Source: Nitrospirota bacterium | Lineage (GTDB): Bacteria > Nitrospirota > 9FT-COMBO-42-15 > HDB-SIOI813 | Assembly: GCA_020846775.1 (NCBI GenBank) | Contig: JADLDG010000025.1 | Span: forward strand, 1-35,864 | Direction of reading: 5' to 3' | DNA length: 35,864 nucleotides | Shown: positions 1-15,027 of the stretch, in pieces | Layout: each line of letters starts with the position of its first letter | Position numbering within the stretch: the stretch's first letter is position 1 | Program-made: the position numbers and the translations under genes | The notes under the pieces: model-generated | What the model was told of the DNA's origin: nothing | Databases searched by the model: none | What the model saw: the letters and a program-made list of their open reading frames with translations, nothing else

Positions 1-857
1 ACATAGTTTTGCCAGACATTGCCGGTATTGGAGCTTCTCATCTGGCTGCACCCTGAACCTGCATCACTGCAGGAGAAGGTTATGGCAGCGGAGGTGGATG
101 TGGCATAAGGATCCCCATTGTTAATAGCAATGGTGCCGGTAGGAGGTGTTGTGTCGGGTGGGGCTAATGTTGTAAAGGTGTAATCACCGGATGTAGTAAG
201 ATTACCTGCGGCATCCCTGCTTTTTACACGGAAGTGGTAGGGTGTCCATGAAGAAAGTCCGCTTAATGAAACACTGTGGGAGGTTAACAGTGTGTTATCT
301 ATTGTTGTTGAAGAGCCGTAGGCAGTGGTTGTGCCGTATTCTATCTGTGAGCTGGCTTGCTCATTAGTAGTCCATGTTATTGCCGCACTGGAACTGGTAA
401 TATTGCCTGTCGTGATATTGGAGAGGACTGGGGCTGTGATATCGGTTGTGCCTGTTGTTGTTTTAGCAACTTCTCCGGAATACGCACTTTCGATTGAGGA
501 GGTGTTATAGGCTGTTGTAGCGAAATAATAGGTTGTATTATCGTACAGGCCTGTCACCGTGTAGCTGGTTACATTGGCGACATTAATGACAGTGCTGTAG
601 TTACCTGAAGTCGGTCCATAATAGACTTTATAACCAGCCAGGTCTGTTAAAGGAGACCCATCACTATTGGTAGTTGGCGGATCCCAAGTCAGGACAGCCT
701 GACCTGCACGCGCCGAATTAGTCGCCCCAATGCTAATAACAGAGAAGATAACAACAACTATCAGAATAGAGAAAATCCCCCTTAATCTTCCATGAGTAGA
801 GGTGGAAGGAGGGGGATTCAAAGTTGTATCAAATAATCGTTGTTTTACCAGGTGCAT
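1..857 (-). CDS. Secreted fibronectin type III repeat protein (3' part outside window)
   Basis: The frame is open on the minus strand from an ATG at 857 to the window edge, giving 285 codons with the C-terminus missing. A Shine-Dalgarno GGAGGG (863-868) sits 5 bases before the ATG. The protein starts with about 28 polar and basic residues, then a hydrophobic stretch (about 29-45) and a likely signal peptidase site after ARA (51). Two fibronectin type III domains follow (about 53-135 and 143-232; visible motifs include AGYKVYYG, YTVTGL, PYHFRVKSRD). After a TPP linker at about 237 a bacterial Ig-like or FnIII-like domain begins. The protein is probably exported and binds or forms surface structure; its real function may lie in the missing C-terminus. 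It is preceded by a sigma-54 promoter, a riboswitch and a terminator, so expression is tightly controlled. Export and domains are well supported, the role is not. Confidence 0.88.
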   Translation of the reverse strand, partial: MHLVKQRLFDTTLNPPPSTSTHGRLRGIFSILIVVVIFSVISIGATNSARAGQAVLTWDPPTTNSDGSPLTDLAGYKVYYGPTSGNYSTVINVANVTSYTVTGLYDNTTYYFATTAYNTSSIESAYSGEVAKTTTGTTDITAPVLSNITTGNITSSSAAITWTTNEQASSQIEYGTTTAYGSSTTIDNTLLTSHSVSLSGLSSWTPYHFRVKSRDAAGNLTTSGDYTFTTLAPPDTTPPTGTIAINNGDPYATSTSAAITFSCSDAGSGCSQMRSSNTGNVWQNY

Positions 858-879: not shown

Positions 880-916
880 AAAAAAAAGCCGCCAGAGAAG
901 TTGTCCTCTGGCGGCT
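880..916 (-). terminator. Intrinsic terminator in the leader of the FnIII gene
   Basis: On the minus strand an 11-bp perfect stem (906-916 with 887-897) with an 8-base loop is followed directly by a run of about eight T (880-887). It lies between the riboswitch and the ribosome binding site of its own gene, so it is an attenuator and not an end-of-operon terminator. Bases 906-910 of its 5' arm also pair in riboswitch helix P1, so the two structures exclude each other. Confidence 0.9.
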
Positions 917-1045
917 CGGCTGACGTAGGAGTTCTGACGATATTATACTTAATTCACATCGTATTAAGTATAATATCTCCAGAATTCCCTTAGTCCCGTT
1001 ACTCTGCGTCACCATCTTTCGATGGCTTTGCTCTGAGCAAAGGTG
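905..1045 (-). promoter_or_regulatory. GEMM-I class cyclic dinucleotide riboswitch (A at the ligand-specificity position)
   Basis: The minus strand carries the GEMM-I core: AGAGCAAAGCC, a CCATC-GAAA-GATGG hairpin (1012-1025, GNRA tetraloop), then GACGCAGAG and GGGACTAAGG. A long second hairpin follows, with a perfect 15-bp stem (963-977 with 939-953), and then GTCAGCCGAGCCGCC. Helix P1 can form between 1038-1043 (CCUUUG) and 905-910 (CAGAGG). By alignment to the V. cholerae Vc2 aptamer (from memory), the base before the conserved G of GCAAA is A where Vc2 has G20. A at this position is the mark of natural GEMM-I variants that prefer 3',3'-cGAMP over c-di-GMP. Since P1 shares bases with the terminator, ligand binding should turn the gene on. 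The aptamer class is well supported; the ligand is inferred. Confidence 0.85.
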
Positions 1046-1101: not shown

Positions 1102-1259
1102 GTGTTGCTTTATCCTGCCATACTGTAATATTATCAAAGGGTTTATAGATAAATAGAACTCATGGCGATAGACAATTTTATTCTCCATATTTGCAAAATT
1201 TTGAACTGGATAAACAAAAAATGTCACATTCCGGACAAGTGTACTTAAACTACTCCCTC

Positions 1260-1288
1260 TTGTCAAGACTTTAATTTGAATTGTCAAG
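1260..1288. promoter_or_regulatory. Two direct TTGTCAAG repeats, candidate activator site
   Basis: TTGTCAAG occurs at 1260-1267 and again at 1281-1288, 21 bases apart or two helical turns. The pair lies about 160-200 bases upstream of the sigma-54 promoter at 1086-1101, a usual distance for enhancer-binding proteins. The core TGTCAA also occurs in the palindrome upstream of the deacetylase promoter. Alternatively the same bases belong to a minus-strand sigma-70 promoter: TTGACA (1261-1266), 17-base spacer, TACACT (1238-1243). Confidence 0.4.
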
Positions 1289-5669: not shown

Positions 5670-7781
5670 ATGTACTTTGATCCCGGCCATATCTTTCTGG
5701 TATTGTCTTTTTTGGGAGCTATCCTGACCCTTGGGGTCGGTATCCTTGTCTTCATCCGTAATCCGCATCACCCTGCCAATATTGGGTTTGGCCTTGGTAT
5801 GCTTAGTCTAACCATAATTGAGGCAGGAAATGTTATTGTCTTCATCTCAGATGGGTTGATGTGGAGTCTCTACGGTAAGAGAATTGCTTTGGTTGGACAG
5901 GCGCTTCTTGCCCCAGGGTGGTTCCTCTTCTCACTAACATTTATAAGATCCAATTATAAAGAACTGCTCTTCCGCTGGAAATATGCCGTGGCAGGGCTTT
6001 TTCTGAGCGCTGGATTCTTTCTTCTCTGGATTAACTCCTATTCTCTCATTGACCTCCCCTACAATGATGTCTACACCATCTTCCCTCTGGGTAGAGTTGG
6101 AAAATATTTTTACTTGTATCTCCTTATTGGTATCCTGCTCTGTCTCGTACAACTCGAGAATACACTGCGTTTTTCTTTGGGTTCAAAGAAAATAGAGGCC
6201 AAGTATGTTATCATCGGAGTTGGTTCAGTACTTGCTTATTATATTTACATCTCGAGTCAGGCCATCCTTTTTTCTTTTCTCGATAGCAGCAATCAGTCGG
6301 TAACTTCAATAGTTATACTGATCTCCTGTACCATTACGATGTTCGCTGTGGTTAGGAACAAACTGCTGGATGTTAATATCTTTGTCTCCCGCTACGTAAT
6401 CTATAATTCATTTACCGTATTATTTGTCGGGGCATATCTGCTTCTTGTCGGTCTTGTAGCACAAGGTATCAAGATGACAGGGGGGACTTATTACACCTTC
6501 TGGAGTGTCCTGTTTACATTTACTGCTATTTTAGGCTTAGTGGTCGCAGTACTTTCAACAAGCCTTAGAAGACGGCTTCAATTGTTCATCACAAAACATT
6601 TTTATCGCAACAAGTATGAGTTCAGGGACAAATGGATTGAAACAATAGAGAAGATCGGATTGAATAATGACCTTGCTCAAATTGAAGAATCTTTAATCGA
6701 GATGATATCTGAGACGATGGCTGTCAGAGAGGTCTTTCTGTGGCTTTATGAGCCTGCTTATAAAGAATATGTTCTTGTTACGTCAACAATTAGAAATGCA
6801 GGTAAGATCAGGTTGAAGGCAAATGACCCGTTTATTTTGAGGATAAAAGATTGTTCTACGCCTTTTTATATCAATGAACCGCCCATTGAACATAGTGACA
6901 GTAAAGAGTTTCATGAACTGATCAGTCCTCTTTTCATGGCGACAACGGCAACCCTTTGCACACCCTTGAGAGCTGGACAGGGAGACCTTATAGGTTTTAT
7001 TCTGCAAGGAGAAGATCTGTCAGGAGAGCCTTACCGGAAAGATGATTTTGATTTATTAAAGGCCATTGCCAGCCATGCGGCGGAGCGAATCAGGAACATA
7101 CACCTGACTCAGGAACTTCTTGTTGCTAAAGAGGCAGAGGCATTCCATCATGTTTCAAGCTTTTTCATACATGACCTGAAAAATTTTTTGTCAACGCTTT
7201 CTCTGTTGACCCATAATGCAGAAGAACATATAGGAAACCCCTTATTCCAGCAGGATGCACTTAAGACGCTCAAATTTATAGTATCAAAAATGAACGGAAT
7301 GGTATCTGATTTGACATTGTTATCCAAGGGGATCCAGATTAATCTTGAATCTATGAATCTCAACGAGGTAGTGGAAGAGACGCTTTCTGCCCTCAATGGT
7401 ACTGTTTCCGGTAAGGTCGTAAAGGATCTCGAAGAAGTCCCGTTAATTAGTGCAGACGCAGGACAATTGCATAAGGTTTTCTTAAATTTGTTGCTTAATG
7501 CTATAGAGGCATCACCTCCCGGTGAGAGCGATAAGAAAATAATGGTACATACGTATGTCAGGAATGGAGATGTGATATTGTCTGTTGCAGATCAGGGGTA
7601 TGGGATGACGCAGGAGTTTATCAACAAAGATCTTTTTAAGCCGTTCAGGAGCAGTAAATCTAATGGGCTCGGGATTGGTTTATTCCAGTGTAAAAAAATT
7701 ATTGATGCCCATTCAGGGAGTTTTGAAGTTAATAGTGAGGTTGGCAAAGGCAGTGAGTTTCGTGTAATATTACCAAAATGA
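5670..7781 (+). CDS. prsK: PrsK-like membrane sensor histidine kinase (PEP-CTERM system)
   Basis: A 703-residue kinase. Residues 1-300 contain many hydrophobic helices, about eight to ten membrane spans. Then come a GAF-like domain (about 330-480), a dimerisation/phosphoacceptor segment with FIHDLKN (phosphorylatable His501) and an ATPase domain with N box LLLNAIEAS (607-615), G1 DQGYGM (641-646) and G2 NGLGIGLFQ (665-673). This layout and the HDLKN box match PrsK of the PEP-CTERM/exosortase systems, which pairs with PrsR. The stop codon overlaps the start of the next gene as ATGA, so translation of kinase and regulator is coupled. Its signal is unknown; a membrane or envelope state is likely. 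The ribosome site before the ATG is weak, so expression may depend on readthrough from the activator gene. Confidence 0.9.
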   Translation: MYFDPGHIFLVLSFLGAILTLGVGILVFIRNPHHPANIGFGLGMLSLTIIEAGNVIVFISDGLMWSLYGKRIALVGQALLAPGWFLFSLTFIRSNYKELLFRWKYAVAGLFLSAGFFLLWINSYSLIDLPYNDVYTIFPLGRVGKYFYLYLLIGILLCLVQLENTLRFSLGSKKIEAKYVIIGVGSVLAYYIYISSQAILFSFLDSSNQSVTSIVILISCTITMFAVVRNKLLDVNIFVSRYVIYNSFTVLFVGAYLLLVGLVAQGIKMTGGTYYTFWSVLFTFTAILGLVVAVLSTSLRRRLQLFITKHFYRNKYEFRDKWIETIEKIGLNNDLAQIEESLIEMISETMAVREVFLWLYEPAYKEYVLVTSTIRNAGKIRLKANDPFILRIKDCSTPFYINEPPIEHSDSKEFHELISPLFMATTATLCTPLRAGQGDLIGFILQGEDLSGEPYRKDDFDLLKAIASHAAERIRNIHLTQELLVAKEAEAFHHVSSFFIHDLKNFLSTLSLLTHNAEEHIGNPLFQQDALKTLKFIVSKMNGMVSDLTLLSKGIQINLESMNLNEVVEETLSALNGTVSGKVVKDLEEVPLISADAGQLHKVFLNLLLNAIEASPPGESDKKIMVHTYVRNGDVILSVADQGYGMTQEFINKDLFKPFRSSKSNGLGIGLFQCKKIIDAHSGSFEVNSEVGKGSEFRVILPK

Positions 7782-14487: not shown

Positions 14488-15027
14488 TTGGATATTTCAT
14501 CTTTGAGCATTGGGCTGCATTCCGGGAAAAAAGATAGATTAATGTTTGACATGGTGACACAGACACTTGAGAGGGAGGCTTTTGACTACCTGCTCGACCT
14601 TGAGGTTAAGAAGGCCGCCAGATACCTTTATTATTTCTCGCTCATGGTCCTTCAAAAGGACAAGATATTAAGGGGTTTATCACCACCTGAGGAAGAGGCA
14701 CTTACGAGGAAGCTTGCCGCCATAGTTAAAGAGGAGGTTAGGGCTACCGACATGATAGGAAGGTTTGAGAATGATAAGTTTTTCCTTATCTTAGATCAGG
14801 CAGATTTTCAGTCATCTTTCAAGGTCGGTGTGAGGATCAAGGATCGTATTGAGAACTACGCTTTTAAGACAAATGGAAACACTGTTGGCATGACTACGAG
14901 TATAGGAATAGCCTGTTTCCCCACGCATGCAAACGATATTGTGACTCTCAGGAGAAAGGTTGACATAGCGTTGAATATGGCAAAAGAAGGCGGCGGAGGG
15001 AAGGTATGCCTGCCGGACTCGGATTAG
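14488..15027 (+). CDS. Degenerate GGDEF-domain protein
   Basis: A 179-residue protein starting at TTG, 9 bases after AGGAG. From about residue 30 it has the fold pattern of diguanylate cyclase (GGDEF) domains: RYLYYFSLMVLQKDK near the start, then IGRFENDKFFLIL where RxGGDEF is expected, and the late motif TTSIGIACFP followed by KVDIALNMAKEGGGGKV. The signature is changed from GGDEF to ENDKF (94-98). The glycines that hold GTP and the glutamate are lost, so it should not synthesise a cyclic dinucleotide. It may bind a nucleotide or act as a regulatory partner. It is the first gene of a sigma-54-promoted operon with the Wzz and tyrosine kinase genes. The family is fairly sure, the activity is not. 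Confidence 0.82.
   Translation: MDISSLSIGLHSGKKDRLMFDMVTQTLEREAFDYLLDLEVKKAARYLYYFSLMVLQKDKILRGLSPPEEEALTRKLAAIVKEEVRATDMIGRFENDKFFLILDQADFQSSFKVGVRIKDRIENYAFKTNGNTVGMTTSIGIACFPTHANDIVTLRRKVDIALNMAKEGGGGKVCLPDSD

Follow-up and report, generated by a model that had tools for sequence, protein, structure and literature searches.

The question raised by this locus is which cyclic dinucleotide is sensed by a GEMM-I riboswitch that has an adenine where the c-di-GMP aptamer Vc2 has G20, and how the gene behind it would be controlled. The window, which is the whole 35,864 nt stretch analysed, is from a 2.7 Mb genome (G000) of the phylum Nitrospirota that is 99.6% complete. The element is best explained as a GEMM-Ib-type riboswitch that probably senses 3',3'-cGAMP, its predicted ligand, as a transcriptional ON switch.

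Aptamer, terminator and regulated gene

The covariance scan of the window found one RNA family, RF01051 (c-di-GMP-I/GEMM-I), at 907–1042 on the minus strand (cmscan, 50.7 bits, E 3.2e-7; the gathering score is 35 bits). The match spans the whole model (1–87) with a complete core, which places the element in GEMM-I and bears out the sequence-only reading, in which an aptamer with all of the core parts was located at 905–1045. These coordinates are correct, the element being on the minus strand. A chance match is ruled out by the E-value and by the presence of close sister copies.

In the structure-based alignment, RF01051 column 11 is an A at position 1032 (T on the plus strand), aligned with the top posterior probability. 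Its neighbours are A18 at 1034, G19 at 1033 and G21 at 1031. Column 11 is directly 5' of the G21-C46 and C22-G45 pairs (Vc2 numbering) at the base of P2, and is therefore equivalent to Vc2 position 20. The Rfam model thus gives A rather than G at this site, as had been read from the letters. The equivalent of C92 is retained at 911 (column 83 is C) and is expected to be the Watson-Crick partner for a guanine of the ligand. This combination of A20 and C92 is that of GEMM-Ib. The overall fold, A18, A47, the GAAA tetraloop and C92 are shared with the Vc2-type c-di-GMP-I aptamers (RF01051), whereas A20 in place of G20 and, in the cmscan alignment, several mismatched junction pairs set the window aptamer apart. 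P3 is extended by an AT-rich hairpin of about 50 nt (932–985, minus strand, -22.9 kcal/mol). This extension is missing from the near-identical sister aptamer L004, and as the palindrome occurs once in the genome, a repeated mobile element is ruled out.

An intrinsic terminator, GAGCCGCCAGAGG-ACAA-CTTCTCTGGCGGCT followed by a T run, is present at 880–917 on the minus strand. Its stem of about 14 pairs (917–880, -23 kcal/mol) is followed by eight U. The 5' arm contains C92 as well as the P1 3' strand (CAGAGG), for which the alternative partner is CCUUUG at the 5' end of the aptamer. The aptamer and the terminator are therefore mutually exclusive. By predicted folding, before the terminator is made the P1-closed aptamer (-51.1 kcal/mol) is close to an alternative fold with other pairing of the P1 5' strand (-51.9 kcal/mol), and the fold with the terminator transcribed is much more stable (-76.9 kcal/mol). 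Together, this exclusivity and these energies predict a transcriptional ON switch. Binding of the ligand would close P1, CCUUUG pairing with CAGAGG, and hold C92 in the pocket, so that the overlapping terminator could not form and the secreted FnIII gene would be transcribed; without ligand, the terminator would form with C92 and the P1 3' strand in its stem and end transcription. The pilM cGAMP riboswitch of Geobacter metallireducens is likewise an ON switch in which the terminator sequesters the ligand-pairing C (PMC9262584). A promoter-like site, TTGACA-17-TACACT, is found upstream of the aptamer (1238–1266, minus strand), yet it is a candidate only, since the count of sites of this kind falls in the range given by shuffled sequence.

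The regulated gene (1–857, minus strand) encodes a secreted protein with FnIII repeats (Pfam fn3, PF00041). It has an ATG at 857, the ribosome-binding site GGAGGG and a signal peptide-like start, and is cut by the start of the contig. The order 3' of the aptamer is terminator, ribosome-binding site and FnIII ATG. The switch had been suggested to govern a secreted adhesin-like protein beside an exopolysaccharide block. The secreted FnIII gene is indeed downstream, but the block, of the XrtA/PEP-CTERM type, is a neighbour only: it starts on the opposite strand, at a distance of about 3.6 kb (PrsK at 5670–7781), and is therefore outside the riboswitch transcript. Within this block, at 14488–15027, is a degenerate stand-alone GGDEF-like protein of 179 aa, its gene immediately preceding that of the chain-length determinant.

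Candidate synthase and distribution in Nitrospirota

There are 19 GGDEF matches in the window genome, and from the many canonical enzymes among these it would follow that c-di-GMP is surely present in the host. One match has the Hypr signature. This predicted GAF-GGDEF enzyme of 358 aa (L014, on G000:C16) has GHLIGS...RYGGDEF, with Ser replacing Asp at the position of GacA Ser348, the signature serine of Hypr enzymes (PMC6456294), and an intact GGDEF motif. Its best PDB match is 6d9m, GacA of G. metallireducens, at 154 bits; the next chain scores 112. Among 64 GGDEF domains placed in a tree, GacA and all of the GacA-type serine enzymes form one clade (support 97/94), outside of which fall the canonical enzymes of the window genome. 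At the residue equivalent to GacA Tyr304, Arg is reported to shift the products toward c-di-GMP (PMC6456294). This position is Leu in the G000:C16 enzyme and Leu, Phe, Met, His, Ser, Thr, Ala or Gln, never Arg, across the GacA-type serine enzymes. The enzyme is therefore like GacA (GSU1658/Gmet_1914, PDB 6d9m) in its GHxxGS serine, GGDEF motif, non-Arg 304 and clade, the differences being that it is a 358 aa GAF-GGDEF and has Leu at 304. The search of the genome for a Hypr-type GGDEF enzyme, proposed along with the ligand prediction, is thus positive, and the host's own G000:C16 enzyme would most likely be the source of cGAMP.

A further locus, L024 (G000:C82:2637-2939, minus strand), encodes HAMP and GGDDF with a Ser aligned to the Hypr position. 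It is similar to GSU1937 of G. sulfurreducens, the second cGAMP synthase in that species, which has these HAMP, GGDDF and Ser features (PMC8835794); the alignment is weak. The related genome G002, of the same genus as G000, has a Hypr enzyme in which the GGDEF domain is identical to that of MHEI01000061.1 from Nitrospirae bacterium RBG_16_43_11.

Six GEMM-I elements are present in the window genome, four with A20 (L001, L002, L004 and L005) and two with G20 (L003 and L006). L004 is a near copy of the window aptamer, as is the gene behind it of the FnIII gene. The subtype pattern of the window aptamer, TGCTCAGAGCAMA...GCAGAGYNNCG, was run on 296 Nitrospirota genomes, with the reversed pattern as control. 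The A20 pattern has 60 copies in 35 genomes of 14 families. Across the same 296 genomes no matches were found to the reversed pattern, nor to the subtype pattern with C, G or T at position 20 and positions 18–19 free. In most of the other A20 elements of this subtype that have downstream sequence the terminator layout is equivalent, and P1 and the terminator covary.

A DNA pattern for the Hypr signature matches in 116 of the 296 genomes, including a few matches, probably due to chance, in which Ser is not encoded. Among the 35 carriers of the aptamer subtype 33 have this pattern, rising to 34 with a Ser-type GGDEF enzyme after direct search. Genome G056 was ruled out as an exception to the co-occurrence, having a GHMEGS enzyme that was outside the first pattern; the one remaining carrier, G040, is 77% complete. 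By genome, the association of aptamer subtype and Hypr enzyme has a p of about 1e-14. By family it is borderline (13/14 versus 16/25 families, p = 0.06), since related genomes are not independent and Hypr enzymes, by pattern, occur in most families (29 of the 39 sampled). The subtype is absent from many Hypr-bearing genomes, and no copy of it was found in the genomes behind L084, L085, L086, L090 and L091.

Ligand choice

The earlier prediction of 3',3'-cGAMP as the ligand is supported independently, within what can be read from sequence, by the GacA-like Hypr enzyme, the invariant A20 and the co-occurrence of the two. In Geobacter, an A to G change at position 20 turned Gmet_0970 to c-di-GMP selectivity (PMC6456294). 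The equivalent of G20 has been described as a selectivity factor and not a hard filter, and cGAMP riboswitches can also bind c-di-GMP through a protonated adenine (PMC9262584).

Because position 20 only tunes the choice (PMC9262584), the A20 aptamer may be promiscuous, reading pooled c-di-GMP and cGAMP while still being an ON switch, in a host with many canonical GGDEF enzymes. This is unlikely given that the same genome has kept separate G20 elements (L003 and L006) and that A20 is invariant in all 60 copies of the subtype. Together these suggest that the distinction is maintained. It is more doubtful still that the element is a c-di-GMP riboswitch in which A20 is simply tolerated. The name of the Rfam class, c-di-GMP-I, and the c-di-GMP network of the host agree with such a reading, yet A20 is conserved, a GacA-like enzyme co-occurs with it and the selectivity of a Geobacter aptamer is reported to switch with a change at this position. 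That A20 is kept for alternative RNA pairing, in a CUUUGCU-CAG-AGCAAAG hairpin or of GCUC with GAGY, rather than for ligand choice, is very improbable: the 5' strand of the window aptamer can form the 7 bp hairpin (-5.6 kcal/mol), and in the free fold, as predicted, UUGCUC is paired with GAGUAA, but type II A20 elements of the same family (CACCGAUAAGAGC) keep A20 without the hairpin, whose outer pairs are disrupted in the CUCUGCUC...GAGCACA members.

Relation to the Geobacter system

As a cGAMP-sensing ON switch, the window element would have its closest parallel in the GEMM-Ib riboswitches of Geobacter (pilM and pgcA/GSU1761). These have the same GEMM-I fold, A20 and C92, and a terminator by which C92 and the P1 3' strand are captured, the ON switch being a prediction here. 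A co-resident Hypr enzyme and extracellular or pilus targets are likewise common to Geobacter and to the Nitrospirota set. The Nitrospirota subtype differs in its phylum, in the G21-C46 and C22-G45 pairs and in having GCUC conserved ahead of A18 and GAGY behind A47. Its targets differ as well, being FnIII proteins, lipoproteins and unknown secreted proteins, with PilM in some relatives.

The genes behind the A20 elements of relatives encode FnIII proteins, lipoproteins and an uncharacterised secreted protein. In family f7, pilM (PF11104), a gene that cGAMP controls in Geobacter (PMC6456294, PMC9262584), follows an A20 element. As predicted from these genes, the Nitrospirota regulon resembles that of Geobacter in its cell-surface direction.

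Other A20 arrangements were also seen. A second A20 GEMM-I type (CACCGAUAA[G/U]AGC; L002, L026, L028, L029, L030, L033, L053 and L107) precedes a conserved secreted protein of about 200 aa with HEYGHA, for which no Pfam match was found in L002, the sole member scanned. The terminator downstream of this type does not include C92, therefore its mode of switching may differ. In L001, L102 and L109, A20 GEMM-I elements are ahead of a conserved multi-helix membrane protein of about 300 aa, without a Pfam match in L001, again the sole member scanned. Three paralogous GEMM-I aptamers, two with A20 and one with G20, are found on one 16 kb contig, G001:C31 (L104, L112 and L114). Paralogues that differ at position 20 are a natural test of the evolution of ligand choice.

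On balance, the data favour a phylum-wide cGAMP network in Nitrospirota, with Hypr enzymes, by pattern, in 29 of 39 sampled families and predicted A20 ON switches in 14, which would run parallel to separate G20 c-di-GMP switches in the same cells and would serve surface proteins and pili. No Nitrospirota cGAMP riboswitch was found in the literature searched, a search outside of which the key papers of 2015–16 fall. The mechanism is of a known class; as far as that literature shows, the novelty lies in the phylum and in its complete candidate pathway. Geobacter is the main source of known cGAMP riboswitches, and in 2022 cGAMP-sensing riboswitches in other bacteria were only hypothesised (PMC8835794). 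cGAMP signalling probably also operates in Nitrospirota, and now that a concrete phylum can be named, together with its riboswitches, target genes and a candidate synthase, direct tests of how widely bacteria use cGAMP signalling become possible.
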